From: Streptomyces sp. JJ38
GTDB taxonomy: Bacteria > Actinomycetota > Actinomycetes > Streptomycetales > Streptomycetaceae
NCBI RefSeq assembly: GCF_019303475.1
Contig: NZ_JABLSI010000008.1
Coordinates: 1-64,000 of the forward strand
Direction: 5' to 3'
DNA length: 64,000 bases
This document shows, in pieces, positions 19,844 through 43,355 of the stretch. Each line of letters starts with the position of its first letter. The stretch's first letter is position 1. Below the pieces are notes generated by a model. The model saw only the letters and a list, made by a program, of their open reading frames with translations. It was not told the origin of the DNA and made no database searches. The position numbers and the translations under genes were made by a program.

Positions 19844-20470
19844 GTGACAGTTCAACGCACGACAGCGATCACCACGATCGGCCTCGCCATCGACAGCGGA
19901 CCGGTGCGGCGCAGGCTCCAGCGGTTGTTCACCGGAGTGGGGTGGCGCACGCTGGAGCCCCAGGCTCCCGGGGACGTACCGCGGTGCGACGTCCTCGTGA
20001 CGGACATGCACCGGCTGGAGGACGTCCGCACGGCCCTTCCCACGCTCGCCCTCGTCTCCGGCACGGGGGCCGTCGGGCTGGGGGCGACCTCCGCCGACCT
20101 GCGGGCCATCGTCGACCGCGACGACCTCGACGGCGCGTTCCTCACCGCCGTGCAGGAGATCCTGGCCGGGCACGGCTGGGTCTCGCCCACCCTCATCCCG
20201 CCGCTGCTGCGCAGCCTGCACCGCCCCTGGCCACCCGCCGGGCGTGGGGCCGACTCCGCGCCGGTGCGGCTCGCGGGGCTCACGGCGCGGGAGAACGAGG
20301 TCGTGGCGCTGGTGGCCCGCGGCATGAGCAACGGCGAGATCGCCGCCGAGCTGCACGTCGCGGAGAGCACCGTGAAGTTCCACATGTCCAACATCCTCCA
20401 GAAGACGGGCCTGCGGGACCGCAGTCAGCTCGCGGCGCGGCTGCCCGGGCCGCTCGCCTGGTCCGCCTGA
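19844..20470 (+). CDS. LuxR/NarL-family transcriptional regulator
   Basis: 208 residues from GTG at 19844 (AGCAGGA upstream). The C-terminal helix-turn-helix (143-200: LTARENEVVALVARGMSNG, then STVKFHMSNILQKTGL) is a clear LuxR-type DNA-binding domain. The N-terminal 120 residues resemble a receiver but lack a convincing phosphoacceptor pocket, so control by phosphorylation is doubtful. It lies at the edge of the RiPP cluster and is the only obvious regulator in it, so it is a candidate pathway regulator. Its 3' end overlaps the convergent rfbB gene by 46 bp. Confidence 0.85.
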   Translation: MTVQRTTAITTIGLAIDSGPVRRRLQRLFTGVGWRTLEPQAPGDVPRCDVLVTDMHRLEDVRTALPTLALVSGTGAVGLGATSADLRAIVDRDDLDGAFLTAVQEILAGHGWVSPTLIPPLLRSLHRPWPPAGRGADSAPVRLAGLTARENEVVALVARGMSNGEIAAELHVAESTVKFHMSNILQKTGLRDRSQLAARLPGPLAWSA

Positions 20471-21456
20471 CCCTCACCGTCGTCCGGCCCGCGGCCGCGC
20501 CACCAATCCGGGTTGTCCCGGTACCAGGCGACGGTCGCGGCCAGGCCGTCGGCGAACTCGCGCCGGGGCCGGTAGCCGAGCTCCTCGCGGGCCCTGGTCC
20601 AGTCGACCGAGTAACGCAGGTCGTGGCCCTTGCGGTCGGGGACGTGGCGCACCCGGCTCCAGTCCGCGCCGCACGCCTCCAGCAGCAGCCCGGTGAGCTG
20701 CCGGTTGGTCAGCTCGTGGCCGCCGCCGAGGTGGTAGACGCGGCCCGCCCGGCCCCGGCGCCGGACGAGCTCGACGCCGTGGCAGTGGTCGTCGACGTGC
20801 AGCCAGTCGCGGCTGTTGCGCCCGTCCCCGTACAGCGGCACGGTCCGGCCGTCGAGCAGGTTGGTGACGAAGCGCGGGATGACCTTCTCCGGGTGCTGGT
20901 GCGGCCCGTAGTTGTTGGAGCAGCGGCTGACGCGCACGTCCAGCCCGTGGGTGCGGTGGTAGGACAGGGCCAGCAGATCGGCCGAGGCCTTGGACGCCGC
21001 GTAGGGCGAGGACGGCGCGAGCGGCTGGTCCTCGGTCCAGGAGCCGGTGGCGACGGAACCGTAGACCTCGTCGGTGGACACCTGGACGAAGAGCTCCGCC
21101 CGGTGCCGGAGGGCCGCGTCCAGCAGGGTGTGGGTGCCCAGGACGTTGGTGCGCACGAAGGCGTCGGCGCCGGCGATGGACCGGTCGACGTGGGACTCCG
21201 CGGCGAAGTGCACGACCTGCGGGTGTCCGGCCAGCAGGGCGTCGACCAGCGCGGCGTCGCAGACGTCCCCGCGCACGAAGGTGAACCGGGGGTCGTCCCG
21301 GACGGCGTCGAGGTTGCGGAGGTCGCCGGCGTAGGTGAGTTTGTCGAGCACGGTGACGGCGAGCGGCGCGGCGGGGTCGGCCAGCAGGCCGCGCACGTAC
21401 GCGGAGCCGATGAACCCGGCGCCGCCGGTGACGAGGAGACGCTGGGGGCGGGTCAC
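20425..21456 (-). CDS. rfbB: dTDP-glucose 4,6-dehydratase
   Basis: 343 residues from GTG overlapping the rfbA stop (GTGA). Converts dTDP-glucose to dTDP-4-keto-6-deoxyglucose, the entry to deoxysugars. Motifs: LLVTGGAGFIGSAYVRGLL (NAD-binding), HFAAESHVDRSI, VSTDEVYGS and the catalytic YAASKASAD (YxxxK). Length matches the short-chain dehydrogenase-type RfbB/StrE enzymes of antibiotic clusters. It supplies the substrate for the EvaA-type dehydratase encoded in the divergent sugar operon. Confidence 0.95.
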   Translation of the reverse strand: MTRPQRLLVTGGAGFIGSAYVRGLLADPAAPLAVTVLDKLTYAGDLRNLDAVRDDPRFTFVRGDVCDAALVDALLAGHPQVVHFAAESHVDRSIAGADAFVRTNVLGTHTLLDAALRHRAELFVQVSTDEVYGSVATGSWTEDQPLAPSSPYAASKASADLLALSYHRTHGLDVRVSRCSNNYGPHQHPEKVIPRFVTNLLDGRTVPLYGDGRNSRDWLHVDDHCHGVELVRRRGRAGRVYHLGGGHELTNRQLTGLLLEACGADWSRVRHVPDRKGHDLRYSVDWTRAREELGYRPRREFADGLAATVAWYRDNPDWWRGRGPDDGEGQADQASGPGSRAAS

Positions 21457-22520
21457 GAGCGGATCTCCACGGTGCTGTGGTCGCCGATGACGAGGCGGTG
21501 GGCGGCGGGCGCGGCCGGTGCGGGGGTGACGACGGCCTCCCGGCCGATCATCGAGCCCTCGACGCGGCGGACGCCGTCGATGCGGGCACCCTCCAGGACG
21601 ATGGAGTCCGCGATCTCGCTGTCGGCGATGTGGACGCCCCGTGCGATGGAGCTGTAGGGCCCGACCTGGGAGCGGGTGACGACGGCGCCCGCGGCGATGG
21701 CGGCCGGGCCGACCACGCGGGACCCGATGACGCGGGCACCCGGTTCCAGCACGACCGGCCCGACGAGCTCGGACCCGGCGTCCACGAAGCCCTCGACGCG
21801 GTGGGCGGTTCTGTCCAGCACGGAGCGGTTGACCTCCAGGATGTCCGCCACGTTCCCGGTGTCCTTCCAGTAGCCGGTGATCCGGGTGGAGCGGACGTCG
21901 TGCCCGCTGTCCACGAGCCACTGGATGGCGTCGGTGATCTCCAGCTCGCCGCGGGCCGAGGGCCGGATGGCGCGGACGGCGGCGTGCACGGCCGGGGTGA
22001 AGAGGTAGATGCCCACGAGCGCCAGGTCCGTCCTGGGGGCGCGTGGCTTCTCCTCCAGGGCGAGTACCCGCCCCCGCCCGTCGGTCTCGACCACGCCGAA
22101 GGCGCTCGGGTCGGGGACGCGGGTCAGCAGGATGCGGGCGTCGGGGCGCTCGGCGCGGAAGTCCTCGACGAGCGGGGTGATGCCGCCGAGTACGAAGTTG
22201 TCGCCGAGGAACATGACGAAGTCCTCGTCGCCGAGCCAGTCCCGGGCGATGAGCACCGCGTGGGCGAGGCCGAGGGGCGCTTCCTGCGGGAGGTAGGTGA
22301 CGTCGAGGCCGAAGGCGGAGCCGTCGCCGACGGCCGCCCGGATCTCGGGGGCCGAGTCGCCCACGATGACGCCGACCTCGGTGATGCCCGCCTCCGCGAT
22401 GGACTCCAGGCCGTAGTAGAGCACCGGCTTGTTGGCCACGGGAACGAGCTGCTTGGCGGAGGTGTGGGTGAGCGGACGCAGCCGGGTGCCCTTGCCTCCG
22501 GCCAGAACGAGGGCCTTCAC
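21453..22520 (-). CDS. rfbA: Glucose-1-phosphate thymidylyltransferase (StrD-type, long form)
   Basis: 355 residues from GTG at 22520, with GAGAGGAG upstream. Makes dTDP-glucose from glucose-1-phosphate and dTTP. N-terminal nucleotidyltransferase signature ALVLAGGKGTRLRPLTHTSA, then FLGDNFVLGG and the EKPRAP segment. The C-terminal 100 residues form a left-handed beta-helix pattern (GARVIGSRVVGPAAIAAGAV), as in StrD-type enzymes of secondary metabolism rather than the shorter RmlA. It follows the YcaO gene by 40 bp on the same strand. Confidence 0.93.
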   Translation of the reverse strand: MKALVLAGGKGTRLRPLTHTSAKQLVPVANKPVLYYGLESIAEAGITEVGVIVGDSAPEIRAAVGDGSAFGLDVTYLPQEAPLGLAHAVLIARDWLGDEDFVMFLGDNFVLGGITPLVEDFRAERPDARILLTRVPDPSAFGVVETDGRGRVLALEEKPRAPRTDLALVGIYLFTPAVHAAVRAIRPSARGELEITDAIQWLVDSGHDVRSTRITGYWKDTGNVADILEVNRSVLDRTAHRVEGFVDAGSELVGPVVLEPGARVIGSRVVGPAAIAAGAVVTRSQVGPYSSIARGVHIADSEIADSIVLEGARIDGVRRVEGSMIGREAVVTPAPAAPAAHRLVIGDHSTVEIRS

Positions 22521-22560
22521 GCGGGTACTCCTCTCGGGCGTGCTGCCGGTGCCGGGGCGG

Positions 22561-23901
22561 TCATGGCAGCGGGTGGGGTCGCCAGGCGAACCGGGACGCG
22601 GCCAGCGCGCCGAGACCGGTGCGTGCCGGGGCCGTCGTCAGGCGCCGGGCGTGCCAGGTGAAGGGGTGGTCCTCCCGGAGCCGCAGCGCCTGGTACCCGG
22701 CGGGCACGACCTTGACGGCGCACCAGCCCATCCTCCGCAGCGGCCCGGGCAGGCGGTACGTCAGGTCGACGAGGAGCGGGTCGGCGCCGTCGGCGACCAG
22801 CAGCCGCACCAGCTCGTCCGTGGACACCGGCGGCGCGGTGCGCGGCGGCCGCTCGGCGGCGAAGGAGTCGACCCACTCGCGCACCCGGGCGTGCCCCTGG
22901 GCGGAGGCGACGTACCGCAGCCGGTCGTCGTCGTCCCGGATGGGCAGGCCGGTGACGTCCTCGGCGCGCTGCTCCTCGGACCAGGAGTTCAGCACCACCG
23001 AGCGCACCTGGAGGGCCTCCTGTAGTGCGCCCAGCATGCTCCAGGCCGCCTGGTCGTCGTCGGCGGTCGCGTTGCAGCCGACCGTGGCCAGCGGCACCGG
23101 GCGCCGCTCGTCCAGCACGATCCCGACCGTGCACACGACGCCGGGCAGCCCGGTCGGCAGCTCGGCCAGGACGGGCGTCAGCCCGGCCCGCTCCACCTTG
23201 CCCCACAGCGCCCGCAGCTCGCGCAGCCGCGCCCCGGCCCGGGGGCCCGCCGTTCCGGGGCGTGCCGTGCCGGGGCGTGCCGTGCCGGGGCCGGCCGGGC
23301 CCGGGAACCGCAGGCGGTGGGGGCGCAGCCGGGCCTCCCACGCGGTGAGGAAGGCGTCCCGCTCGACGGTCTCCAGCAGCGCGGCACGCAGGGCGTCCCC
23401 GGGGCTGCCTCCGGAGGCGGCCCCGGAGGGGGTGGGGTCGAAGTGCGCGGCCTGGGGCGAGGGGTCGGGGTAGTCCACGAGTGGGGCGGGGACGTGGACG
23501 TCCGTGCCGTCGCGCAGTCGCCGGGCCGGGTACCAGGTGAGGGGCAGGGAGCGGGCCTCAGGAGCGCCGAGCGCGAGCCCGGGGTCGGCGAAGTCCGGTG
23601 CTCGGGTGCCCAGTTCCGCGGCGGTGGCCGCGGTCACGGCGCCGGGCGGCGGGCCGCCCTCGGGGAACAGGGCGTACCGCTCCACGGCTTCGCCGACGCC
23701 CCGCACGAGGGTGTTGCTCCGGGAGTGGCCGTAGGCACCGACGACTCGCGGGGTGAGGGTGTGCCCGGCGCGCTCGGCGGCCGTGGAGCGGAGCCGGACG
23801 AGGCAGCGCCAGAGCAGGTCGTCGGGGGGTGCGGGAGGGCGGGCCTCGCTGCGTTCGGCGAGCCCGTTGGCGGGGTCGAGGGTGGCCTGGAAGTCGATCA
23901 C
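22561..23901 (-). CDS. YcaO-family RiPP enzyme with PxPxP C-terminus
   Basis: 446 residues from GTG overlapping the LanKC stop. YcaO proteins activate peptide backbone amides with ATP to form azolines, thioamides or amidines. Nucleotide-site features: GEAVERYAL (70-78) and ALLETVERDAF (174-184). A second conserved block spans 275-300. The protein ends PHPLP (442-446), matching the PxPxP tail of azoline-forming cyclodehydratase YcaOs. No ThiF-like/E1 partner, TfuA or flavin dehydrogenase of the SagB type is encoded in the cluster. Neither precursor has Cys, so only Ser/Thr or backbone chemistry is possible. A short repeated PGTAR segment (205-218) is probably a linker. Confidence 0.85.
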   Translation of the reverse strand: MIDFQATLDPANGLAERSEARPPAPPDDLLWRCLVRLRSTAAERAGHTLTPRVVGAYGHSRSNTLVRGVGEAVERYALFPEGGPPPGAVTAATAAELGTRAPDFADPGLALGAPEARSLPLTWYPARRLRDGTDVHVPAPLVDYPDPSPQAAHFDPTPSGAASGGSPGDALRAALLETVERDAFLTAWEARLRPHRLRFPGPAGPGTARPGTARPGTAGPRAGARLRELRALWGKVERAGLTPVLAELPTGLPGVVCTVGIVLDERRPVPLATVGCNATADDDQAAWSMLGALQEALQVRSVVLNSWSEEQRAEDVTGLPIRDDDDRLRYVASAQGHARVREWVDSFAAERPPRTAPPVSTDELVRLLVADGADPLLVDLTYRLPGPLRRMGWCAVKVVPAGYQALRLREDHPFTWHARRLTTAPARTGLGALAASRFAWRPHPLP

Positions 23902-26504
23902 GCGACGTCTCCGGGGGAGCCGGCGCCGTCCGGGCGGGGCGCGGGGGAGAAGAAGGGCAGCGAGGCGGGCGTGTCGGAGAGCACCGCGCCGAGAGCGAGC
24001 AGGACGCCCGCGCCGCCGGTGGCGAGGTCGGTGGAGATCCGCAGGGAGTCATGCCCGAGGACGCCGACGCGCTCGGGTCCGGCGTCGGCGTCGTCCCCGT
24101 CCGGGGCGAGCCGGACGACCTGGAGCGCGTGGTCCCGGACGTGCCGCAGGGCGCTCGGAGCGGGGCGGCCGTCCGCCGACGGCCCGGTGAGGTGGTGCAG
24201 GGCCAGCAGGGTGCCGGAGCGGCCGTGGAACAGCCCGGCCTGGGGCAGGTACTGGCGGGCGGCGCTCGCGGCGACGGCGTCGCGGGCGCGGGCCAGCCCG
24301 GCGTCGGGGCGGTGCCGCAGGAGGTCGTGCAGCACCATGCCGGTGCCCGCGCAGCCCATGCCGAGCAGCGGCATGCGGCCCGGGGCGTCGGCGGGGAACT
24401 CCTCGCCCGTCCAGCCCAGGGCCGCGAGGTCGGCGCGGGCGGCCGTCACGGCGTCGTCGAGCAGGGCGGAGTCGCCGGTCTCCTCGAAGAGCCGCAGCAG
24501 GAACAGCGCGCCGCCCGAGGGCCCGCGCAGCAGCCCGAAGCGGGAGGCGTCGCCGGGCTCGCCGGGGGCGGTGTCGCGGACGCGGTCGGCCAGCCGCCGG
24601 GCACGGGCGAGCAGGAGGTCGTCGCCGGTGCGGCGGGCGAAGTGCAGGAGAGTGAGGCCGATGCCGGACAGCCCGCTCATGAGGGAGACGCCCAGGCCCT
24701 CGGCGGCCTCGCCGTCCAGGTGGGGGAGCAGGGCGGCGGCCTCCCGCGGCCGGCCGAGCCGGTCGAGGGCATAGGCGATGCCGGCGAGGCCGTGAAAGAA
24801 GTCCGGCCGGGGGTCGGACAGTTGGCGGGTGTCGCGCACGAGCCGGTCGATGTGCTGTCCGGGCACGGGGACGCCGGACTCGGCCAGCGCCCACAGCACG
24901 CCCGCGGTGCCGTGCGCGAACGCGGTGGTGCCCTCGGGGGTGAGGAACTGGTCGGGGTCGCCGGGGAAGAGCCGGTCGTCCCGCCCGGTCTCGGCGCACT
25001 CCAGGATGCCCTGGCCGAGGGCGGCGGCCAGTTCCGGCCAGGCGGCCCGCATCTCGGCCGCTTCGCCGGAGGGCCACGGGGTGGGCGTCTGGTGCTCCGT
25101 CAGCCCGAGGTCGGCGCGTACCCGGTGGGCGAAGTCCTCGGGCACCGGGAAGCGCGCGGTGACGGCGGCGATGAGGTCCTCCGTCTTCCGCGGCCCCCAC
25201 GGCAGCAGGCTCGTCAGGGCGTTGAAGACGGCGAGGCGCAGGCAGCCGAGGGCGTAGCGGTCGATGGCGAAACCGGTGACGCCGTCGGGGGCGGTGAACC
25301 CCGCGGCGCCCATCGTCTGCCGCTCGGCCTCCTCGACGGGGGCGGCGGCCTCGAAGTCGATGAAGCCGACGCCGCCGTCGGGGCGGACGAGGATGTTGGA
25401 GGGGTGCAGGTCGCCGAAGACGATGCCGCGGGCGTGGAGGCTGTCCACGCCGCGCTCGACGCCGTCGAGGATGCCGAGGGCCCAGTCTGCGTAGTCGGCG
25501 AAGTCCTGTGGGTCCTCGCTGCCGCGGGCCAGCGGGTTGCGCTGGATCATCTCCCGGCCCAGCGGCTCGCCCTCGATGAACTCCCTCACCAGGAACCAGT
25601 GTTCGCGACCCTTGCGGAAGTCGTACAGCGCGGGCACGACCTCGGTGTCGGCGAGCTTCTCCAGCGCCAGGCGCTCCCGCTCCTGCCGGTACACGGCGTC
25701 CCTGCCGTCGACGAGTCCGGCGTGCGGCCGGGCCTCGCGCAGCAGCACCGGCGTACCGGTGCGGGTGTCCTCGCCCCGGTAGACGCCACCGCCGTTGGAG
25801 AAGTGCAGGGCGCCGGTGACGCGGTAGGGGAAGTCGTGCAGGGTGCCGGCGTTGCGGGCGGCGAGGGCCTCGGTGAGGCAGTCGGGGAGGGGTGCCCACG
25901 AGGGCGGCCGGAAGCCGGGGCCGCGGTGGTCGGGGACGAGGTTGCCGTCCGGGTCCTCGACGCAGTGCACCGGGGTGCCGGAGGGGCCGCGCACGGTGCG
26001 CAGCACGAAGCCGCCGTACCGCACGTACAGGGGGCCCGAGCGCCAGCGCAGGTCGCTGAGGATGTAGGGCCCCTCCCGGCCGTCGAGCAGCTCGCCGAGC
26101 TCGTGCAGCACCCGCTCCAGACGGGCCTCGTCGGTCGGGTAGACGGTGATGAACTTGCCGCTCGCGCTCCGGTCGCCGTACTTGCCGTTGCGCTGCTCCA
26201 GGACGGCCAGGCCGCGGATGAACTTGAAGGTGAGGCCGTGTTCGAGGCAGTAGGCGGAGGCGATGCCGAGGATCTCCTCGGCGTTCTCCAGGGTCGCCGA
26301 CACATGGATCTTCCAGCCCTGCGGCGGCAGTTCGACGTCCGGCGGGTTGACACCGATCCACTCGGCGTCCCGCTGCATGCTCCAGCCCGCGGGCAGGTCG
26401 GCGTCGGCGAGGGCGAAGTTGCCCTCGTCCGGGCTGATGCGGGCGGGCACGTCGAAGAAGGGGCTGCCGGGCGGGCAGAAGTGCAGGTGGCGGCCGAGGT
26501 CCAT
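23898..26504 (-). CDS. Class III-type lanthipeptide synthetase (LanKC)
   Basis: 868 residues from ATG at 26504 (AGGGAAACC upstream). Domain order: N-terminal phospho-Ser/Thr lyase-like region (about 1-210), Ser/Thr kinase (about 225-480) and LanC-like cyclase (about 520-850). The kinase has catalytic loop GDLHPSN (364-370) and DFE (383-385). The cyclase keeps the Gly-rich repeats (HGTAG 531, FHGLAG 570). It has Cys at the first zinc position (GMGCAG, C718) and a His (H760), but Phe759 stands where class I, II and IV cyclases have the second Cys of the CHG motif. This fits class III. It should phosphorylate and eliminate Ser/Thr to give Dha/Dhb. No Cys-containing precursor is seen, so lanthionine formation is doubtful. 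Confidence 0.92.
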   Translation of the reverse strand: MDLGRHLHFCPPGSPFFDVPARISPDEGNFALADADLPAGWSMQRDAEWIGVNPPDVELPPQGWKIHVSATLENAEEILGIASAYCLEHGLTFKFIRGLAVLEQRNGKYGDRSASGKFITVYPTDEARLERVLHELGELLDGREGPYILSDLRWRSGPLYVRYGGFVLRTVRGPSGTPVHCVEDPDGNLVPDHRGPGFRPPSWAPLPDCLTEALAARNAGTLHDFPYRVTGALHFSNGGGVYRGEDTRTGTPVLLREARPHAGLVDGRDAVYRQERERLALEKLADTEVVPALYDFRKGREHWFLVREFIEGEPLGREMIQRNPLARGSEDPQDFADYADWALGILDGVERGVDSLHARGIVFGDLHPSNILVRPDGGVGFIDFEAAAPVEEAERQTMGAAGFTAPDGVTGFAIDRYALGCLRLAVFNALTSLLPWGPRKTEDLIAAVTARFPVPEDFAHRVRADLGLTEHQTPTPWPSGEAAEMRAAWPELAAALGQGILECAETGRDDRLFPGDPDQFLTPEGTTAFAHGTAGVLWALAESGVPVPGQHIDRLVRDTRQLSDPRPDFFHGLAGIAYALDRLGRPREAAALLPHLDGEAAEGLGVSLMSGLSGIGLTLLHFARRTGDDLLLARARRLADRVRDTAPGEPGDASRFGLLRGPSGGALFLLRLFEETGDSALLDDAVTAARADLAALGWTGEEFPADAPGRMPLLGMGCAGTGMVLHDLLRHRPDAGLARARDAVAASAARQYLPQAGLFHGRSGTLLALHHLTGPSADGRPAPSALRHVRDHALQVVRLAPDGDDADAGPERVGVLGHDSLRISTDLATGGAGVLLALGAVLSDTPASLPFFSPAPRPDGAGSPGDVA

Positions 26505-26590: not shown

Positions 26591-28324
26591 TCAGCGGAGG
26601 GCGGGGGCGATGTAGGTGAGGTACATCCACGCGGCCAGCGGGCGTTCGCCGGCCTCGATCGTGGCCATGCCGGTGTGCTCCTTCGGCGGTTCGCCGGTGG
26701 TCAGCGGGAAGCTCTCGACCGGCATCGGCAGATCCTCGACGTCGCGCACGGGCATGAACGCCGAGAAGGGCGCCGTGGTCTTCTCCGGGGTGGCGGAGGC
26801 GACGGTCGCGGTGCCGACGTCGCCGCGCAGGATGACGCCGAGCCGCTGGAGTCGCACCGTGGAGCCCTCGTGCACGGCGGACAGGTCGCTGGACTCGGAG
26901 AGCACCAGCGACACCGTGCCGCCCTCGGTGACGAACCCGCCGACGACGGTGTACGGCACCTTGACGAAGGCCAGGGCCGCCGTCACGGCGGCGAGGGCGA
27001 GTCCGCAGGCCGCGGCGATCCGGGCGCGGCTCGCTCCGGCCTTGCGCCCCTCGCGGACGAGTCGCCGCGCGGACAGGAAGGCCCGGTAGAGCAGGAAGGA
27101 GAGCGCGCCGACGACGAGGAGCCCGCCCACGGCGCCGAGGGCCTGGAGGACGTCCGCCCACAGCGTGGCGGCCACGCCCACCAGGTAGAGCGGGAACACC
27201 ATGCAGGCCAGCCCGAAGGGCACGGCCCAGCCAAACTGCGGCAGCCCGCGCGGGTACCGGCCGCCGAAGAGCACCCTGGCCACCGCGCGGCGGGCGTCGG
27301 TCATGGCCCGGTCCCGCAGGTGCGAGACGTCCAGATGGCTCATCAGGGCGAGGTAGCCGTCGAGCTTCACGAACGGCACGAAGTTGAAGAAGCTGGTGAC
27401 GAAGGTGGAGACGGCGAACACGACCATGCCGTCGTAGAGCGTCGAGGGGCCGTTCACCCGGCCGTACACCAGGGCGGCCAGCGCTACCGAGCCGCCGATC
27501 ACCGTCTGGGTGACGATGCCCGCGAGGGCGATCCTCGTGCGCTGTTCCTTGTGCGGCAGTCGCCAGCTGTCGGAGACGTCGCAGAAGAACGCCGGCGACA
27601 TGTAGAAGAGCATGAAGCCGATGCGGTTCGGGCGGCCGCCGTAGTAGGTCAGCGTCGCACCGTGCCCGAGCTCGTGCAGCAGGGTCGCGAACGCCGTCGC
27701 CACCACGAGACCGAGGATGATCGCCAGCGGCATGGGCTGCCCCAGCGCCCGCTCCAGCGCGGGCCCCTGGAGGCTCAGCGAGAACAGCCCGCCGAGGACG
27801 AGGAGGGCCGCGAGGACGCCGAAGACCGGCCGGGCGACGGCGCGGATCAGCGGCTCCAGCGCGTCCATGAGCCGCTGCGGCCGGAGCAGGGTGAACTGCA
27901 CGGTGAACGGCGGAACGAACTTGACGAGCTCGCGGCGGCGCCGGTGCCGCCCGGGCCGCACGCTGCCGTCGTCGAGCAGGCCCATGGCGTACAGCCGCCC
28001 CACGGCGGTGGCCACGGCCTGCTCCGTCCACGGCGGGCCGAGGGCCTCCACGAGCCGGGCGTGGTCGCGGACGCCGTCCATGGCCAGCAGCAGCCTGGCC
28101 ATGTCGGCGCCGACGCGGATGTACTGGTCACCGGAGCGCACGATCCACGGGGCGCCCTCGTCCAGCGGCTCGTGTACGGAGACCCGGCGAGCGGTGCGCG
28201 GGTAGGCGAAGCGTTCGGCGGCCCGCTCGGGCGGCACCTCCCGCTCCTTGCCCGCGTCGCCGCGTCGCAGGGTGCCGCCGAGGCGGGACGCGAGGCCCGT
28301 GGGGCGTTGTCCGGTGAGGGTCAT
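26591..28324 (-). CDS. Site-2-type intramembrane metalloprotease, probable leader peptidase
   Basis: 577 residues from ATG overlapping the permease stop by 4 bp. An N-terminal PqqD-like winged-helix region (about 55-120: VRSGDQYIRVGADMARLLLA and following) could bind the leader. Multiple membrane helices surround the zinc motif HELGH (217-221) and the second S2P motif NFVPFVKLDG (314-323). The C-terminal soluble domain resembles a periplasmic adaptor. Intramembrane metalloproteases of this layout are part of daptide gene sets, where they are proposed to remove the leader. The position beside the ABC transporter supports coupled cleavage and export. Confidence 0.85.
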   Translation of the reverse strand: MTLTGQRPTGLASRLGGTLRRGDAGKEREVPPERAAERFAYPRTARRVSVHEPLDEGAPWIVRSGDQYIRVGADMARLLLAMDGVRDHARLVEALGPPWTEQAVATAVGRLYAMGLLDDGSVRPGRHRRRRELVKFVPPFTVQFTLLRPQRLMDALEPLIRAVARPVFGVLAALLVLGGLFSLSLQGPALERALGQPMPLAIILGLVVATAFATLLHELGHGATLTYYGGRPNRIGFMLFYMSPAFFCDVSDSWRLPHKEQRTRIALAGIVTQTVIGGSVALAALVYGRVNGPSTLYDGMVVFAVSTFVTSFFNFVPFVKLDGYLALMSHLDVSHLRDRAMTDARRAVARVLFGGRYPRGLPQFGWAVPFGLACMVFPLYLVGVAATLWADVLQALGAVGGLLVVGALSFLLYRAFLSARRLVREGRKAGASRARIAAACGLALAAVTAALAFVKVPYTVVGGFVTEGGTVSLVLSESSDLSAVHEGSTVRLQRLGVILRGDVGTATVASATPEKTTAPFSAFMPVRDVEDLPMPVESFPLTTGEPPKEHTGMATIEAGERPLAAWMYLTYIAPALR

Positions 28325-29064
28325 GCGATGTCCCGGCTGACCAGACGTCGGCGGGCGAGGAAACCGGCCAGGGCGAGCCAGCCGCCGATCACCGCGAGGG
28401 CGAAGGGCACCGGGAGGGCGTCCTCCTTGCCGTCCAGGTAGACGGAGCCCATCGCGACCTGCATGGTGAAGCGGCCCACCTCGGGCAGCAGCAGGAAGAG
28501 CGTCTCGTCCACGAACAGGGTCAGGACGAGAGCGATGGCCACGGTGGCGGCCTGGTTGCGGATGAGCCAGCCGAGCATGACGCCCCAGGGCGCGGCCAGG
28601 ACGACGACGGTGGCGACGCCGAGCAGCGTGCGGGACGCCTCCCCGCTCCACACCACGTCGAAGCCGAACAGGCCCGCGAACGCGTACGCCGAGGCCGGGG
28701 CCAGCGCCGCGGCGACCAGGGCGAACAGCGCCCCCATCGCGGTGCCGACGGCCGCCTTGGCCGTGAACAGCCGGGTCCGGCCGCCGCACAGCAGCGCCGA
28801 GCGGTTGACGGCCCCCGAGCCGTACTCGCGGCTGACGAACACGGCGCCGAACAGCAGCGAGCCGAGCAACGCGGAGAACCAGGCGCGCACCATCTCGGCC
28901 GTCACGGCGGCGGCGTCGGTGACGCCCTCGTCGAGCTGCTGGTCACCGACGGCGGCGGCGCCGCTGCTGCCCAGCAGGCCCATGAAGAGCGCGACGACGG
29001 CCATGATCCACCAGGTGCGCCCACTCCAGGCCTTGAGCCATTCGGCCTTCAGCAGATCACGCAT
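28321..29064 (-). CDS. ABC transporter permease (ABC-2 type)
   Basis: 247 residues from ATG. About six hydrophobic helices, starting with LLKAEWLKAWSGRTWWIMAV, a pattern of ABC-2 permeases; SREYGSGAVNRSALL is a typical conserved loop. It overlaps the ATPase gene by 8 bp upstream and the protease gene by 4 bp downstream. Likely exports, or gives immunity to, the mature peptide. Confidence 0.88.
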   Translation of the reverse strand: MRDLLKAEWLKAWSGRTWWIMAVVALFMGLLGSSGAAAVGDQQLDEGVTDAAAVTAEMVRAWFSALLGSLLFGAVFVSREYGSGAVNRSALLCGGRTRLFTAKAAVGTAMGALFALVAAALAPASAYAFAGLFGFDVVWSGEASRTLLGVATVVVLAAPWGVMLGWLIRNQAATVAIALVLTLFVDETLFLLLPEVGRFTMQVAMGSVYLDGKEDALPVPFALAVIGGWLALAGFLARRRLVSRDIA

Positions 29065-30021: not shown

Positions 30022-30074
30022 GGCTTGCTCTCCGTTGGCTTGCAGACCGTGGGGGGATGGTGCGGGAGACCGGT

Positions 30075-30421: not shown

Positions 30422-30426
30422 CCGTG

Positions 30427-35343: not shown

Positions 35344-35395
35344 CGGTCGGGGGCCGGGCCCGTCTCGTCCCCCTGGCAAGGTGGTCGGGGGCGTC

Positions 35396-36394
35396 TCAGA
35401 CCGGCGCGAGGGCCGTCAGCAGCGTCTTCAGGTCCTCCAGGGCCGCTTTCGGGCCCTCGCGTTGACACAGACCGGTGAGGTTGAGGACGACCTCGTCGAC
35501 CCCGGCGGCGTGGTACTCGGCGATGCGCGAGCGCAGTTCGTCGAGGTCCCCGTAGAGGAACGCTCCGCCCTCGACGATGCGCTTGGCGTTCAGCCGCGCG
35601 TCGTCGGTGTCCGCCTCGATCCCGGCGCGGCGCAGCATGTCGAGGTAGTGGGGCGCCGCGAGGTGCGCGGCGTTGCTCGCGAGGGCCAGCTCGGCGGCGT
35701 CCCGCCCGGGCCGGTGCAGCGCGAGGGGCACCATGGCCGTCAGGTGCGGCACCGGCCGGTCCGCCTTCCGGGCCCCCTCCTCCAGCGCGGGCCGCAGCGT
35801 GCCGCGGACGTAGGAGGCGGGGGTGAGCCAGGTGACGGCGGCGTCCGCGACCTCCCCGGCCAGCCGGGCCATGCCCGGGCGCAGCACCCCGAGCCCGATG
35901 CCCACCTGCGGGGAGGGGGCCGGGGGCAGGGCGCCGTGGCAGGAGAAGTAGCGGCCCCGCACGTCGACGGTCTCGCCCGCGAGCAGCCCGCGCACGATGG
36001 TGACGTACTCGCGGGAGGCGGTCAGAGGGCTCGCGTAGGGGGCACCGAGCAGGCTGGTCTGGAAGGACGCGCCGCCGGGTCCGAAGGCGGTGAGCACGGA
36101 CCGGCCCGTCGTCAGGGCCAGCGAGCGCGCCTGCTGGGCGGCCTCGAAGGGGTGCCGCAGCGGCATGAGCGTGACGCCGACGCCGGTGGGGACGCGGAAG
36201 CCGGTACCGGCCGCGGCGGCGAAGCCCTGGAACGGCTCCACCATCATGGCCTGGCCCTGCCACAGCCGTACCGCCGGAGTCCAGTCCACCAGCGCCGCGA
36301 ACGGCAGCAGTTGCTCCGGCCGGCGCGGCAGGAACGGCACCAGCACCGAGAGGGCGGTCTCGGCGCCCCCGGGCTCTCTCCGGCTCGATCTCAC
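35396..36394 (-). CDS. LLM-class (luciferase-like) flavin/F420 oxidoreductase
   Basis: 332 residues from GTG at 36394, preceded by GAGGAGAG. TIM-barrel features of the bacterial luciferase family: VPTGVGVTLMPLRHPFEAAQ, the VGIGLGVLRPGMARLAGEVAD strand-loop and AGVDEVVLNLTG near the end. Such enzymes use FMNH2 or F420 for monooxygenation, reduction or dehydrogenation. It is the first gene on the minus-strand side of the divergent promoter region, separated from the daptide set by a hairpin. Its substrate may be the peptide (for example Dha/Dhb reduction or side-chain oxidation) or a sugar intermediate. Confidence 0.85.
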   Translation of the reverse strand: MRSSRREPGGAETALSVLVPFLPRRPEQLLPFAALVDWTPAVRLWQGQAMMVEPFQGFAAAAGTGFRVPTGVGVTLMPLRHPFEAAQQARSLALTTGRSVLTAFGPGGASFQTSLLGAPYASPLTASREYVTIVRGLLAGETVDVRGRYFSCHGALPPAPSPQVGIGLGVLRPGMARLAGEVADAAVTWLTPASYVRGTLRPALEEGARKADRPVPHLTAMVPLALHRPGRDAAELALASNAAHLAAPHYLDMLRRAGIEADTDDARLNAKRIVEGGAFLYGDLDELRSRIAEYHAAGVDEVVLNLTGLCQREGPKAALEDLKTLLTALAPV

Positions 36395-37021: not shown

Positions 37022-38068
37022 ATGCCCCGCGTCTCGGTCATCTGCCCGACCTACAATCGCGGCCGGGAACTGCTGCACACCCTGAATTCCGTCCGGGCCC
37101 AGACGTTCCCGGACTGGGAACTCATCGTCGTCTCGGACGCCAGTGACGACGACACCGACGACGTCGCCGCCGAAGTGGCGGCGGAGGACCGGCGGGTGCG
37201 GCTCCTGCGCACCGAGCGCTTCGGCTTCCCGGCCGGGCCGGTGAACGTCGCCCTGCGCGGCATCGGCGGCGAGTACGTCGCCTACCTCGACCACGACGAC
37301 CTGTGGGAGCCCGAGCACCTTGCCACCCTCGTCGCCGTGCTGGACGAGGGCGCCGACTGGGTCGCCGCCCGCTCCCGCAAGGCGGACGCCCGCGGCCGGG
37401 TCACCGAGACCCTCGACCCCCTCACGCTGTGCTGGCACCCCGAGATCCAGCTCATGAACCCGCTGTTCGAGAACTCCTGCGCTCTGCACCGCAGCGAACT
37501 CGCCGAAGTCGTCGGCGGCTGGCGGGAGTCCGGCGTCGGGCTGGAGGACTGGGACCTGTGGCTGCGGCTCACCGACGCCGGGGCCCGCTGCACCACGCTG
37601 CTCGACCGCACCGTCACCCTCCTGCACGACCCGGGCACGCGGCAGCACAGCCTGCCCTGCGCCCACGAGCACGAGATCGCCCGGCTGCCCGACCCGCGCG
37701 CCGCCCGCGCCGCCTACCGCGCCCTCACCCACCCGCGGCACTTCGAGGCGGGGTACGAGGCGGCCACCGCCGACCTCCTGCGCTGGTACGGCGGCCTGGC
37801 CGAACGCGGCGAACTCGTCTTCCCACGCGGCTGGGAGGGCGGCGCCGAGGCGCTGCCGGAGGCCGTGCGGCGGCACGTCCGGGCCGTCGCGCCGGTGTGG
37901 AGCAACCTCATCATCGAGCCCAAGGACGACCACGTGGCGCTGAGCATGGTCCTCAGCACGATGACCGCCGAGCACGCGCGCCGCTACACCGACTACTTCC
38001 GCTCCACCATGCACAGCCAGATGGAGTTCTACGAGGCCGTGCTGCCGCCCGGGAGCGTCGTCCGGTGA
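37022..38068 (+). CDS. Family 2 glycosyltransferase
   Basis: 348 residues from ATG at 37022 (AAAGGAAAAAG upstream). A GT-A fold inverting transferase: N-terminal VSVICPTYNRGRELL, the metal-binding DHDD in AYLDHDDLWEPEH, and the acceptor-side EDWDLWLRL. Clusters making vancosamine-type sugars usually use GT1 (GtfA-like) enzymes, so a GT2 family enzyme is unusual. It heads the sugar operon and overlaps the EvaA-type gene by 4 bp, so the natural inference is that it moves the aminodeoxysugar to the peptide. Confidence 0.9.
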   Translation: MPRVSVICPTYNRGRELLHTLNSVRAQTFPDWELIVVSDASDDDTDDVAAEVAAEDRRVRLLRTERFGFPAGPVNVALRGIGGEYVAYLDHDDLWEPEHLATLVAVLDEGADWVAARSRKADARGRVTETLDPLTLCWHPEIQLMNPLFENSCALHRSELAEVVGGWRESGVGLEDWDLWLRLTDAGARCTTLLDRTVTLLHDPGTRQHSLPCAHEHEIARLPDPRAARAAYRALTHPRHFEAGYEAATADLLRWYGGLAERGELVFPRGWEGGAEALPEAVRRHVRAVAPVWSNLIIEPKDDHVALSMVLSTMTAEHARRYTDYFRSTMHSQMEFYEAVLPPGSVVR

Positions 38069-39480
38069 GCGGCGAGCGCGAGGCTGCCGGGGCGCGCTCC
38101 ACGGCGCGCTCCACGGCGCGCTCCGGGGCGTGCGAGGCGGCGGGGGCGCGCGGGTCGGCCGCCGTGCCCCCTCAGCTGCGGCGGCTGCTGGACGAGGCGA
38201 CGGCCCGGACGTACACCCGCGCCGAACGCGTCCCACTGGCCGAACTGGACTCCTGGTACACCGACCCGGCCACCGGCACGCTGCGGCACACGAGCGGCGG
38301 ATTCTTCAGCGTGCGCGGCGTCCGCGTCCACCGGCCCGGCCACCCCGTGCCCGACTGGGACCAGCCCATCATCGACCAGCCGGAGACCGGCGTCCTCGGC
38401 CTCCTCGTCGGCGACCTCGGGGGCGTGCGGCACTGCCTCGTGCAGCTCAAGGCCGAACCCGGCAACCACAACGGCATCCAGATCTCCCCGACGGTGCAGG
38501 CCACCCGCAGCAACTACCTCGGACTGCACGGCGGCCGCCGCGTCCCCTACCTGGAGCACTTCACCACCCGCGGGCGGCACCGGGTGCTGGCGGACGTGCG
38601 CCAGTCCGAACAGGGCGCCTGGTTCCTGCGCAAGCGCAACCGCAACCTCGTCCTCGACGCCGGCGACACCGCCGAGGACATCCCCGTCCTGGACCACTTC
38701 ACCTGGCTGCCGCTGGCCACCCTCCACGCCCTCCTGGCCGTCGACGACCTCGTCAATATGGACACCCGCTCGGTGCTGGCCTGCCTGCCCCCGCCCCCCG
38801 GCCCGCCCGCCGTGCCCGCTCCCGCCCTGCACTCCGAGACCGAGGTGCTGAGCTGGATCACCGACCAGCGCACGGCCGCGGACCTGCGCGTCACCCCGGC
38901 CCCGCTGCACGACCTCGCCCGCTGGCACCGCGACGCCGACGGCATCCGGCACGACAGCGGCAACTTCTTCGAGGTCATCGGCGTCCGGGTCACGGCCCAC
39001 GGCCGGGAGGTCGCGGGCTGGTGCCAGCCGATGCTGGCCCCCGTCGGCACCGGGCTCGTCGCCCTGCTGACCACCCGGGTCGACGGCGTGCCGCACGTGC
39101 TGCTGGAGCTGCGCCCCGAACCCGGCTCCGCCGACGTCGCCGAACTCGCCCCCACCGTGCGCTGCCTGCCGCGCAACTACACCGCCCTGCCCGCCGAGGC
39201 CCGGCCGCCCTTCCTCGACCACGTCCTCGCCGCCGACCCCACCCGCGTCGTCTTCGACAGCGTGCAGTCCGAGGAGGGCGGACGCTTCCACCACGCCCGC
39301 ACCCGGCACCTGATCGTGGAGAGCGAGCCGCTGCCCGAGCCGCCCGGCCACCGCTGGCTCAGCCTGCCCCAGCTCACCGAACTCCTGCGGCACAGCCACT
39401 ACGTGACCATGGAGACCCGCAGCCTCCTGGCGTGCCTGCGCTCCCTGCCCGAGTACGGCACCCCGGGAGGTGCGGCATGA
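38065..39480 (+). CDS. NDP-hexose 2,3-dehydratase (EvaA type)
   Basis: 471 residues from GTG overlapping the glycosyltransferase stop. Two homologous halves are visible. Each contains a W/S-Y-T-D or W-H-R-D opening, an EVxGVRV or SVRGVRVH strand, a VQLKAEPG or LELRPEPG core and a SEQGAWF or [10 protein letters not shown] segment. This tandem architecture is the hallmark of the 2,3-dehydratases (EvaA, TylCVI) that remove O2 from dTDP-4-keto-6-deoxyglucose. The first 35 residues are a low-complexity Ala/Arg/Ser stretch including repeated STARS. Confidence 0.9.
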
Positions 39481-40430
39481 CGCCCCCGCTCGTCGCCGTC
39501 CTCGGTGCCGGCGGGCTGCTGGGCTCCGCCGTCACCGCACTGCTGGCCCGCCGCCCCGGCCGGGTCCGCGCCGTCGCCCGCCGCCCCGTCGCCGTGCCGC
39601 CCGGCGCCCCCGGCCTCGCCGACGTCGAGACCCTCACCGCCGACCTGACGGAACCCGGCGCCCTGCGCGCCGCCCTCACCGGCGCCGACGCCGTCGTCTA
39701 CCTCCTCACCCACCGCACGGCCGAGGGCAGTTGGCGCGTCGACCCGCACGACGCCCACGCCCGCCACGTCAACCTCGGCCTGCTCGCCGACACGCTCAGC
39801 GCGCCCCGCTGCGGCGCACCCCGCCGCACCGTCGTCTTCGCCTCCTCCCTCGGCGCGCGGCCCGACGGCACCGCGTACGAGCGCTACAAGCTCGCCGCCG
39901 AGGACGCCCTGCTCCGCGCCTCCGGGGAAGGCATCGTCTCCGGCGTCCCGGTACGTCTGCCCACCGTCTTCGGCCCGCCCGCCGCGCCCTCCGCCGTCGA
40001 CCACGGCGTCGTCAGCGCCATGGCCCGCCGCGCCCTGGCCGGGAAACCGCTCACCCTGTGGCACGACGGCACCGTCCGCCGCGACTTCCTCTACGCCGAG
40101 GACGCGGCCCGGGCCCTCGTCGCCGCCCTCGACCACGCCCCCCGGCTCGCCGGCCGGGCCTGGCCCGTCGGCAGCGGCACCCCCACCGAGGTCGGCGCCG
40201 TCTTCGCCACCGTCGCCGACCTCGTCGCCCGCCACACCGGCACCGCGCCCGTCCCCGTCCACACCGCCGCCCCCGCCGACCCGGCGGCGGCCGACCTCCG
40301 CGACGTCACCGCGCCCGACCCGCGGTTCCGCACCATCACCGGCTGGCGCCCGCGCGTCCCGCTGCACACCGCGCTGGAGCAGACGGTCGCCGCCCTCGCC
40401 GCACCGCACCACGAGAGGACACCGCAGTGA
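39477..40430 (+). CDS. NDP-hexose 4-ketoreductase (EvaE type)
   Basis: 317 residues from ATG overlapping the previous stop. An extended short-chain dehydrogenase: [10 protein letters not shown] nucleotide loop, VVFASSLGA strand and catalytic YERYK. It reduces C4 of the sugar at the end of the pathway. C4 stereochemistry (vancosamine versus epivancosamine) cannot be read from sequence by eye. Confidence 0.85.
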
Positions 40431-41536
40431 CGATCCGCGTCTGGAGCTACCTGGAGGAGTACGGCGAGGAGCGCGAGGATCTCCTCGACGCCGTGCGGAC
40501 CGTCTTCGCCTCGGGACAGCTCGTCCTCGGCGCCAGCGTGCGCGGCTTCGAGGAGGAGTTCGCCGCCTACCACGGACTCGCCCACTGCGTCGGCGTCGAC
40601 AACGGCACCAACGCCGTCAAGCTCGCCCTCCAGGCCCTCGGCGTCGGCCCCGGCGACGAGGTGATCACCGTCTCCAACACGGCCGCGCCCACCGTCCTGG
40701 CCATCGACGCCGTCGGCGCCACCCCCGTCTTCGTCGACGTCCGCGCCGAGGACCACCTCATGGACGTCGAACAGGCCGCCGCCGCCGTCACCGACCGCAC
40801 CCGCGCACTCCTCCCCGTCCACCTCTACGGCCAGTGCGTCGACATGGCACCCCTGCGCGAACTCGCCGACCGGCACGGCCTCGCCCTCGTCGAGGACTGC
40901 GCCCAGGCCCACGGCGCCCGCCACCACGGCCGCCTCGCCGGCACCCTCGGGGACGCCGCCGCGTTCTCCTTCTACCCGACCAAGGTGCTCGGCGCCTACG
41001 GCGACGGCGGCGCCGTCGTCACCAGTGCCCCCGGCACCGATGCCGCGCTCCGCCGCCTGCGGTACTACGGCATGGAGGAGCGCTACTACGTCGTCCGGAC
41101 CCCCGGCCACAACAGCCGCCTCGACGAGGTGCAGGCCGAGATCCTGCGCCGCAAGCTCACCCGGCTCGACGCCTACACCGCCGCCCGCCGCGCCGTCGCC
41201 GACCGCTACGCCGAGGCCCTGGCCGACACACCGCTCGTCCTGCCCCGCACCGCACCGGGCAACGAACACGTCTACTACGTCTACGTCGTCCGCCACCCGC
41301 GCCGCGACGCCATCCTCGCCGCCCTCCGCCGCCGGGGCATCGAGCTCAACATCAGCTACCCCTGGCCCGTCCACACCATGACCGGCTTCGCCCACCTCGG
41401 CTACCGCGAGGGCTCCCTGCCCGTCACCGAGGCCCTGGCCAAGGAGATCTTCTCCCTGCCCATGTACCCGGCCCTGCCCCGCGCCGTGCAGGACGAGGTC
41501 ATCGGCGCCCTCCGCGACGTCCTGGCGGACCTGTGA
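40427..41536 (+). CDS. NDP-sugar aminotransferase, DegT/DnrJ/StrS family (EvaB type)
   Basis: 369 residues from GTG overlapping the previous stop. The PLP Lys is K186 in [15 protein letters not shown], with D157 in [10 protein letters not shown]. In this pathway it adds the 3-amino group. N-terminus and length match 3-aminotransferases of 2,6-dideoxysugars. It is distinct from the class III aminotransferase of the peptide operon. Confidence 0.9.
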
Positions 41537-42117: not shown

Positions 42118-42119
42118 CC

Positions 42120-43355
42120 ATGACGTCCACCACCGCCCCTGCCTGCCGCGTCTGCGGCGCATCCCTGCGGGAGTTCCTCGACCTCGGACGCCAGCCCCTC
42201 TCCGACGCCTTCCTCACCCCCGACGCCGACCCGAGCGAGGAGTTCTTCTTCCACCTTGCCGTCGGCCACTGCACCGGCTGCACCATGGTCCAGCTCATGG
42301 AGGAGGTCCCGCGCGAGAAGATGTTCCGCGAGGACTACCCGTACCACTCCTCGGGTTCCTCCGTGATGCGCGCCCACTTCACGGCCACCGCCCGCGGCCT
42401 GCTCGACCGGGAACTGACGGGCGAGGACCCCTTCCTCGTCGAACTCGGCTGCAACGACGGCGTCATGCTCGACACCGTGCGCCAGGCCGGCGTGCGCCAC
42501 CTCGGCGTCGACCCCTCGGCCGGGGTCGGCGACGTCGCCCGCGCCAAGGGCGTCCGCGTGCGCACCGCGTTCTTCGAGGAGGCGACGGCACGCGAGATCG
42601 CCGCCGAGGACGGCCGCGCCGACGTCGTCTACGCGGCCAACACCCTGTGCCACATCCCCTACCTGGACTCCGTTTTCCGCGGCCTGGACGCCGTCCTCGC
42701 CCCCGGCGGCGTCTTCGTCTTCGAGGACCCCTACCTCGGCGACATCGTCGAGCGCACCTCCTACGACCAGATCTACGACGAGCACTTCTACCTCTTCACC
42801 GCCCGCTCCGTCGCCGCCCTCGCCGAGCGCTTCGGCTTCGAGCTGGTCGACGTCGAGCGGCTCCCCGTCCACGGCGGCGAGGTCCGCTACACCCTCGCCC
42901 GCGCCGGCGCCCGCACCCCCGCCCCCGCCGTGGCCGCGCTCCTGGCCGAGGAGGCCGAACGCGGGCTGGCGGAGCCGGAGACCTTGGACGCCTTCGCCAC
43001 CCGGGTAGCCCGCAGCCGCGAGGACCTCCTGGCGCTCCTGACCCGTCTGCGCGACGAGGGCCGCACCGTCGTCGCCTACGGCGCCACCGCCAAGAGCGCC
43101 ACCGTCGCCAACTACTGCGGCATCGGCCCGGACCTGGTCTCCTTCGTCTGCGACACCACCCCGGCCAAGCAGGGCAGGCTCACCCCCGGCGCCCACCTCC
43201 CCGTCCGCCCGGCCACCGCCTTCGCCGAGCCCCATCCGGACTACGCACTCCTGTTCGCCTGGAACCACGCCGAGGAGATCATGGCCAAGGAGCCCGCCTT
43301 CACCGCCTCCGGCGGCCACTGGATCACCTACGTCCCCGAGGTCCGCGTGCTGTGA
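42120..43355 (+). CDS. NDP-hexose 3-C-methyltransferase (EvaC/TylCIII type)
   Basis: 411 residues from ATG. The N-terminal zinc-binding module has C9, C12, C51 and C54; the SAM loop is FLVELGCNDGVMLD; the active-site segment YDQIYDEHFYLFT and C-terminal GATAKSATVANYCGI are typical of sugar 3-C-methyltransferases. It puts the branch methyl on C3, giving the vancosamine skeleton. Last gene of the sugar operon; about 200 bp without a gene follow before the tRNA terminator. Confidence 0.92.
   Translation: MTSTTAPACRVCGASLREFLDLGRQPLSDAFLTPDADPSEEFFFHLAVGHCTGCTMVQLMEEVPREKMFREDYPYHSSGSSVMRAHFTATARGLLDRELTGEDPFLVELGCNDGVMLDTVRQAGVRHLGVDPSAGVGDVARAKGVRVRTAFFEEATAREIAAEDGRADVVYAANTLCHIPYLDSVFRGLDAVLAPGGVFVFEDPYLGDIVERTSYDQIYDEHFYLFTARSVAALAERFGFELVDVERLPVHGGEVRYTLARAGARTPAPAVAALLAEEAERGLAEPETLDAFATRVARSREDLLALLTRLRDEGRTVVAYGATAKSATVANYCGIGPDLVSFVCDTTPAKQGRLTPGAHLPVRPATAFAEPHPDYALLFAWNHAEEIMAKEPAFTASGGHWITYVPEVRVL

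Follow-up and report, generated by a model that had tools for sequence, protein, structure and literature searches.

A hybrid Streptomyces gene cluster joining daptide biosynthesis to an amino-deoxysugar pathway, with a predicted glycosylated product

Daptides are ribosomal peptides whose C-terminal Thr is decarboxylated by DapB and DapC, aminated by DapD, and methylated by DapM (PMC10036551, PMC12338566). The window analysed here, a stretch of 64,000 nucleotides from Streptomyces sp. JJ38, holds at 19997–43355 a cluster of two divergent gene sets in which a daptide cluster stands together with a predicted complete dTDP-amino-sugar pathway. We consider it reasonably probable that its main product is a predicted daptide with an L-epivancosamine-type sugar on Tyr20 of the core of precursor A1. 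Gene content, family membership, conservation, and the co-occurrence of the glycosyltransferase with core Tyr are observed, and from them we infer every chemical step in this organism.

Conservation of the gene set

We scanned genome contigs for the family 2 glycosyltransferase (GT2) of the cluster and found 71 loci, of which seven were mapped. Two of these, L002 (Streptomyces sp. ISL-1) and L003 (TSRI0107), hold daptide genes together with EvaA–E-type sugar genes (Eva genes); four others, leaving aside L004, are without this set. Further clusters were collected with the DapB model NF041823, which has one match in the genome of the window. In samples that overlap, it matched in 24/392 genomes of a genus sample and 24/391 of an order sample, in 19/394 of a class sample (17 above the cut-off), and in 12/345 of another order (10 above). 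One further family sampled gave matches in 5/35 genomes and no new clusters. The matches below the cut-off, two of the class sample and two of the other order, were left out, as was G564, which lies on the same contig as L003. In total, 68 distinct clusters were mapped, the window included, some of them only fragments. GT2 brought the window, L002, and L003 into the set; all other clusters were found by NF041823 alone. Where a contig end or the 30–40 kb limit truncates a cluster (e.g., G147, G377a, G238, G452), the absence of a glycosyltransferase is uncertain.

GT2 and all five Eva genes occur in 7/68 clusters: the window, L002, L003, G152, G566, G412, and G1136. The first six, hereafter the Streptomyces eva clusters, come from six species, the window's included. 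All six contain the daptide genes, LanKC, the LLM gene, YcaO, RmlA, RmlB, GT2, and EvaA, E, B, D, and C, and the shared genes stand in the same order, the LuxR gene aside, with YcaO, RmlA, and RmlB after LanKC. Leaving out precursors and LuxR, the proteins of the five other clusters are 47–81% identical to those of the window. A LuxR homologue lies beside or inside each of the five, and an open reading frame (ORF) of 65 residues is found in two. Among 11 window ORFs tested from outside 19997–43355, none matched the DNA (21–34 kb each) of these five clusters. In G1136 (L288, 11251–16411), which belongs to another genus, the five Eva genes follow LanKC in a different order and the GT2 is 51% identical; YcaO, RmlA, and RmlB gave no match in the 30 kb of this cluster.

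An earlier sequence-only reading of the window had proposed a search for the same gene set in other genomes, and the whole set proved to stand together in six Streptomyces species. The same reading held that separate occurrence of the daptide, LanKC/YcaO, and sugar genes would speak against a joint product. The parts do occur apart, as daptide genes with LanKC and LLM or with YcaO, in both cases without sugar genes, yet the full set is kept together in the six species.

These distributions bear on whether the locus could be two independent neighbouring pathways, a sugar-free daptide beside a sugar cassette for another scaffold. EvaA homologues are indeed common (11/21 genomes, the window's own included), and 61/68 mapped clusters do not have all five Eva genes. 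Against this stand the block, shared by six Streptomyces species and present in altered order in a seventh cluster, and the operon layout: rmlAB close the daptide operon, and the divergent one consists of GT2 and the Eva genes. Moreover, no other scaffold-making enzyme was seen among the genes scanned within 19997–43355, and GT2 tracks a residue of the precursor. Two pathways are thus very improbable in our view, and the comparison supports reading the locus as one hybrid cluster, most simply as one glycosylated daptide pathway.

Tyrosine in the core peptide

We took as the core the part of a precursor that follows the leader motif of xEAP type. The counts leave out 7 clusters among the first 60 and 1 among the 8 of the hold-out, in which no precursor was recovered. 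In the 60 clusters with precursors, core Tyr is present in 27/27 with GT2 versus 4/33 without (Fisher 3.6e-13, uncorrected for ancestry). For the first 53 clusters, the counts are 24/24 versus 3/29 (Fisher 4.2e-12), and the next-strongest residue tied to GT2 is Asp (2.9e-4). Among those of the 53 that have no LanKC, Tyr is found in 4/4 with GT2 and 1/4 without (p 0.14). The position is also constrained: a Tyr stands at core position 20–25 in 27/27 GT2 clusters, exactly at 20 in 19 of the first 24. A1 of the window has Tyr20 within IGYGS, plus Tyr24; A2 has Tyr3 only, and the same is seen in G566 and G412.

The hold-out comprised eight later clusters from another order (two clusters of that order, G832 and G754, were already in the first set). 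Of the seven with precursors, core Tyr is present in 3/3 with GT2 and 1/4 without. The exception, G1063 (L291, 14453–17341), has no GT2; next to its DapM stand an EvaA homologue and a glycosyltransferase that is EryCIII-like and unrelated to GT2. This glycosyltransferase was looked up after the exception had been noticed. By tblastn, it has no match in any other mapped cluster; other glycosyltransferase families were not searched for. When it is counted as well, the figures become 28/28 versus 3/32. G1063 would represent an independent recruitment of deoxysugar genes into a daptide cluster.

Several observations weigh against Tyr20 as the acceptor. A minimum of six changes in GT2 and four in Tyr is needed on the DapD tree, where well-supported branches carry two independent pairs. 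Concordant pairs average 1.8 and opposite pairs 0 with the EryCIII-like enzyme counted (1.7 for GT2 alone in the 53 clusters). Once ancestry is allowed for, the link between GT2 and Tyr is not significant; with only two independent pairs on well-supported branches, this test is powerless. G460, G645, and G537a have core Tyr, and no glycosyltransferase was recognised by eye among their nearby called ORFs. A close GT2 elsewhere in the G460, G645, and G537 genomes was not found, the matches being distant (28–43% over partial lengths). The Tyr of the characterised mpa daptide 1 is given as plain L-Tyr (PMC10036551), and glycosylation of Tyr by the GT2s of cacaoidin, a glycosylated peptide considered below, is itself a proposal (PMC8068269). 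Precursors without Tyr also occur in GT2 clusters (e.g., G125a, G018), A2 has no Tyr at position 20, and core Asp and Asn accompany GT2 as well, less strongly. Because of the kinship of the clusters, the three Tyr clusters without a recognised glycosyltransferase, and the plain Tyr in mpa daptide 1, we regard the Tyr rule as a good forecast, short of proof.

We also considered whether daptide clusters that have no GT2 might be served by a closely similar one at another site of the genome. All 12 such genomes searched, those of G460, G645, and G537 among them, have GT2-type matches, each of them distant (best 60 bits), and this candidate was dropped.

The sugar might instead sit on the daptide at another place: on Ser or Thr, on Trp, for which NAI-112 is an example (PMC8068269), or on Tyr3 of A2 or Tyr24 of A1. 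Ser, Thr, and Trp are abundant in the cores, with Thr and Trp in some core of each of the first 53 clusters, the two other Tyr sites are at hand, and solved relatives of GT2 carry the names of enzymes with quite different acceptors. However, Tyr tracks GT2 far more closely than other residues do, and its place at 20–25 is constant in GT2 clusters; we judge another site unlikely.

The glycosyltransferase

The window GT2 is 37–38% identical to two GT2s of locus L004 from S. cacaoi. With its two GT2s and its LLM gene, L004 has a layout that fits the cacaoidin cluster, and we take it as the putative cacaoidin locus. A GT related to the cacaoidin GT2s is therefore found here together with a core Tyr, Tyr20 of A1. 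The closest database match, 97% identical, is named "unclassified Streptomyces." The best Foldseek matches of the predicted structure (pLDDT 95.4) are 9jma and 9jn3, and the next ones include the GT-A enzymes SpsA with bound dTDP and RmlT with bound TDP-rhamnose. These matches lie mainly over the N-terminal GT-A part (template modelling score ~0.5 by query length), which is followed by a helical C-terminal part. An alignment of 52 sequences shows no change at D92, D93, and D176 and very little at D90, H91, and E175. In the GT2 tree, the six Streptomyces eva-linked GT2s form one supported group with some further database GT2s.

P0039, a GT2 of 45% identity labelled "uncultured Actinomyces" and found on 73 contigs, falls in the tree group of the window GT2. 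In the eva clusters G152 and L002, a second GT2 (46–48% identity) adjoins RmlA, and these two clusters may therefore add another sugar or build a disaccharide.

Gene content of the cluster

Gene limits were taken from a codon-usage caller, and families were assigned with Pfam and NCBIfam profiles. The minus-strand set runs in the order DapJ, DapB, DapM, DapD, DapC, A1, A2, 65-residue ORF, ABC ATPase, permease, DapP, LanKC, YcaO, RmlA, RmlB, and the plus-strand set in the order GT2, EvaA-, EvaE-, EvaB-, EvaD-, and EvaC-like genes. The features, by position in the window, are as follows:

19997..20470, plus strand: LuxR-type regulator (GerE domain); PF00196; 44–52% homologue at 5/5 other Streptomyces eva clusters
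20425..21456, minus strand: RmlB, dTDP-glucose 4,6-dehydratase; TIGR01181 407.5 bits, cut-off 365
21453..22520, minus strand: RmlA (long type), glucose-1-phosphate thymidylyltransferase; TIGR01208 432 bits, cut-off 320
22561..23901, minus strand: YcaO (DapY-like), predicted C-terminal imidazoline former; PF02624; PHPLP end
23898..26504, minus strand: LanKC, class III lanthionine synthetase, here a predicted Ser/Thr dehydratase; NF038151 884 bits, above cut-off
26591..28324, minus strand: DapP, S2P-type intramembrane leader protease; NF041824 479 bits, above cut-off
28321..29064, minus strand: ABC-2 permease (DapT2); PF12730
29057..29827, minus strand: ABC ATPase (DapT1); PF00005; nearest NCBIfam TIGR03740 (lantibiotic protection ATPase), below cut-off
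29824..30021, minus strand: membrane ORF of 65 residues, flanked by A2 and the ABC ATPase; same-place homologues in G566 (55%) and G412 (46%)
30116..30286, minus strand: precursor A2, core GFYSGFKDGLTFSLAVSALSVTATT, Tyr3 codon 30185–30187; NF041808 32.6 bits; translation
30427..30615, minus strand: precursor A1, core GWATWAGFGTGTAVTSAIGYGSVYLAVSGAAIT, Tyr20 codon 30469–30471, C-terminal Thr codon 30430–30432; NF041808 33.5 bits; translation
30670..31956, minus strand: DapC, oxidative decarboxylase of the iron alcohol dehydrogenase (Fe-ADH) family; NF041822 426 bits, above cut-off
31953..33224, minus strand: DapD, class III aminotransferase; NF041821 628 bits, above cut-off
33221..34087, minus strand: DapM, N-methyltransferase; NF041820 306 bits, above cut-off
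34084..35178, minus strand: DapB, recognition protein of the RiPP recognition element (RRE) type; longer ORF to 35379; NF041823 407 bits, above cut-off
35396..36394, minus strand: DapJ, LLM-class (F420-type) reductase, predicted D-Ala former; PF00296 100 bits; 52% to the LLM gene of S. cacaoi L004
36395..37021: divergent intergenic region, presumed promoters for both operons; sequence layout
37022..38068, plus strand: GT2, predicted Tyr O-glycosyltransferase; PF00535; model pLDDT 95; GT-A structure matches
38164..39480, plus strand: EvaA-like NDP-hexose 2,3-dehydratase; PF03559 488 bits; PDB 4j7g EvaA 413 bits
39477..40430, plus strand: EvaE-like SDR, predicted 4-ketoreductase, weakest assignment; PF01370; place kept in six Streptomyces clusters
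40427..41536, plus strand: EvaB-like sugar aminotransferase (DegT); PF01041 365 bits; PDB 2oga 311.5 bits
41533..42117, plus strand: EvaD-like 3,5-epimerase; PF00908; best PDB match 1ofn PCZA361.16, 220 bits
42120..43355, plus strand: EvaC-like sugar C3-methyltransferase; PF08484; PDB 5t64 662.5 bits, TcaB9 628 bits

The sequence-only reading had ascribed the first gene group to daptide biosynthesis, and five dedicated daptide equivalogs plus the precursor model, all above cut-off, bear this out. Its recognition protein, methyltransferase, class III aminotransferase, and iron-ADH homologue correspond to the DapB, DapM, DapD, and DapC equivalogs, and its S2P protease with an ABC transporter to DapP and the PF12730 and PF00005 proteins. 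The two small peptides it described, with a common leader and a terminal Thr, both score above the NF041808 cut-off of 25. The leaders of A1 and A2 have ELGMQELEAMEAPG in common and contain ELEAMEAP (ELExMEAP type), and the last residue of both precursors is Thr. The coordinates it gave were about right for every named gene type, and the match between the named types and the locus content is far beyond chance.

For DapB, the start at 35178 is more likely than that at 35379 because the model alignment begins at residue 76 of the longer ORF. From the comparison above, we assign the LuxR gene (19997–20470) to the cluster. The 65-residue membrane ORF (29824–30021) probably belongs to it as well and could be an immunity or helper peptide; besides G566 and G412, no clear match to it was found in the other searched clusters.

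The predicted sugar

The rfbAB pair named in the sequence-only reading is present as rmlA and rmlB, and Pfam recovered all families of the divergent operon with GT2 and five EvaA–E-type genes. The EvaA-like protein matches solved EvaA (PDB 4j7g), and the best PDB match of the EvaD-like protein is 1ofn, PCZA361.16, which we take to be EvaD of the chloroeremomycin cluster. The EvaC-like protein matches 5t64 ("sugar 3-C-methyl transferase") and TcaB9, and the EvaB-like protein the transaminase 2oga, presumably DesV. Homologues are therefore at hand for four steps of the EvaA–E pathway (2,3-dehydratase, aminotransferase, C3-methyltransferase, and epimerase). Starting from glucose-1-phosphate, RmlA, RmlB, and the Eva set would likely yield a dTDP-3-amino-3-methyl-2,3,6-trideoxy sugar. 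The order of the sugar steps follows the published EvaA–E pathway to dTDP-L-epivancosamine of the chloroeremomycin type. The five predicted enzyme types are the same as in that pathway, with direct matches to solved EvaA and PCZA361.16; the difference is that the pathway there serves non-ribosomal glycopeptides, whereas in the window it adjoins the genes of a ribosomal peptide.

The eva homology could be misleading, and another deoxysugar could be made, such as vancosamine, an N-modified form, or a rhamnose-like sugar. It counts against an epivancosamine-type sugar that the EvaE assignment rests mainly on gene position: this SDR, which would set C4, has weak PDB matches to distant SDRs (best 62 bits). 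RmlA, RmlB, and an epimerase also stand in several clusters that have GT2 and no eva genes (further sugar genes were not part of that search), and kin of the window GT2 probably handle other sugars. However, the homologues of EvaA, EvaD, and EvaC have solved counterparts for just those steps (413, 220, and 662.5 bits), and no second N-methyltransferase gene besides DapM is found among the scanned cluster genes. We consider another deoxysugar rather unlikely.

Peptide tailoring enzymes

LanKC: LanKC and YcaO had both been named by the sequence-only reading, and both are present. Class III lanthipeptides combine a LanKC synthetase with core Cys for (methyl)lanthionine or labionin; the synthetase is found here, whereas Cys is absent from A1, A2, and the cores of 53/53 clusters. 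As the cores are without Cys, a lanthionine-forming role was rejected, and LanKC is most likely a dehydratase that feeds DapJ.

DapJ: Where "LLM flavin enzymes" had been reported, the cluster has LLM in one gene only (35396–36394). DapJ scores below the cut-offs of the F420-dependent LLM subfamilies in NCBIfam.

YcaO: Two daptide YcaOs are shown to form imidazolines, and a PxPxP C-terminus is stated for TfDapY and SaDapY (PMC12338566). The window YcaO lies inside a daptide cluster and ends in PHPLP, which fits PxPxP and the DapY type. In the first cluster set, this end is found in 15/21 YcaOs, and each of these 15 comes from a cluster with LanKC; the other six, whose clusters have no LanKC, terminate in PxPxI or PxPxV. 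None of the 84 matches in a YcaO protein search stands under the source organisms of TfDapY or SaDapY. Partners of the thiazole/oxazole-modified microcin type (E1-like/ocin-ThiF or azoline dehydrogenase) were not seen among the cluster genes scanned with Pfam and NCBIfam. As such partners were not seen and two daptide YcaOs are known imidazoline formers, an azole or thiazole was rejected as the first choice. By analogy, the YcaO product is most likely a C-terminal imidazoline competing with the dimethyl amine.

Proposed biosynthesis

DapB would bind the ELEAMEAP leader. DapC, DapD, and DapM would then convert the C-terminal Thr via aminoacetone and diaminopropane to the dimethyl amine Dmp, and YcaO may intercept the monomethyl stage and close the C-terminal imidazoline, which would give two possible ends. 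LanKC is predicted to dehydrate core Ser, perhaps Thr, and DapJ to reduce the double bonds to D-Ala (D-aminobutyrate).

For the sugar, RmlA and RmlB would turn glucose-1-phosphate into dTDP-4-keto-6-deoxyglucose. EvaA would remove O2, EvaB aminate C3, EvaC methylate C3, EvaD epimerise C5, and EvaE reduce C4, and the product would be dTDP-L-epivancosamine or of vancosamine type, depending on the C4 configuration. GT2 would transfer the sugar to the Tyr20 phenol of A1; A2, with Tyr3 only, may stay bare. Finally, DapP is expected to cleave after EAP, and DapT1/T2 to export the peptide.

The sequence-only reading had expected a glycosylated, dehydrated, and perhaps heterocyclised daptide. A glycosylated daptide is the simplest reading, and the heterocycle is most likely an imidazoline. 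Dehydration is probably an intermediate state only, because the sca daptide, from a cluster with a LanKC/LanJC pair, contains D-Ala, and five of its Ser residues had turned into Ala (PMC10036551).

Comparison with known systems

tfDap of Thermobifida fusca has DapBCDM, P, and T1T2 together with LanKC (DapKC), LLM (DapJ), and YcaO (DapY), and its YcaO closes a C-terminal imidazoline (PMC12338566). The window resembles it in these genes and adds rmlAB, GT2, and EvaA–E, whereas the available text of that paper names no sugar genes for tfDap (PMC12338566). The sca cluster of Streptomyces capuensis shares the daptide core and the LanKC/LanJC pair, with five Ser changed to Ala and D-Ala detected; in the available text, neither YcaO nor sugar genes are mentioned for it (PMC10036551). 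Cacaoidin is alike in its GT2s, rml genes, F420H2-dependent oxidoreductase, and deoxysugar-bearing O-glycosylated Tyr, but it is a class V lanthidin with aminovinyl-methylcysteine (AviMeCys) and carries rhamnose and 6-deoxygulose, no amino sugar (PMC8068269). According to a 2023 survey, glycosyltransferases and nucleotidyltransferases are present in some daptide clusters; the available text leaves sugar, acceptor, and product of this subgroup unnamed (PMC10036551).

The statement that no described product combines these features thus stands in part: a daptide with LanKC, LLM, and YcaO is known from tfDap, and the full sugar pathway remains new. No amino-sugar daptide was found in the literature, which was surveyed mostly by title and abstract, with few subscription journals and no supplements. 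What is new here is the full sugar pathway and the forecast of its target; the combination of LanKC, LLM, and YcaO with daptide genes is already known.

Neighbouring stretch

On the 3′ side of the cluster, the stretch 43770–48897 lies between tRNA-Met (43586–43662, minus strand) and a transporter gene, with GC content down to 0.59–0.66 from 45 kb on. It contains a methyltransferase with a PCMT domain, a regulator-like ORF to which Pfam gave no match, and a radical SAM ORF; the C-terminal part of the latter is apparently continued in another frame, followed by a phosphotransferase-like part. It is perhaps a second small RiPP (ribosomally synthesised and post-translationally modified peptide) locus or a remnant.

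Significance

More broadly, the clusters may define a glycodaptide class with two amine ends, D-residues, and a vancomycin-family amino sugar, in which core Tyr near position 20 is the standard handle for GT2s, and once, independently, for an EryCIII-type enzyme, and the precursor sequence on its own forecasts glycosylation; we regard the case for such a class as evenly balanced. If true, the sugar chemistry of glycopeptide antibiotics would be joined to a genetically encoded peptide, and peptides already thought to be membrane-active would gain a third positive charge. There would also be a testable case of the glycosyltransferase-bearing daptides, so far only mentioned in the available text (PMC10036551). 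The GT2 family would have a readable acceptor rule (near core position 20, a small residue and then Tyr, with Ser or Gly frequently next), which would be useful in peptide engineering.

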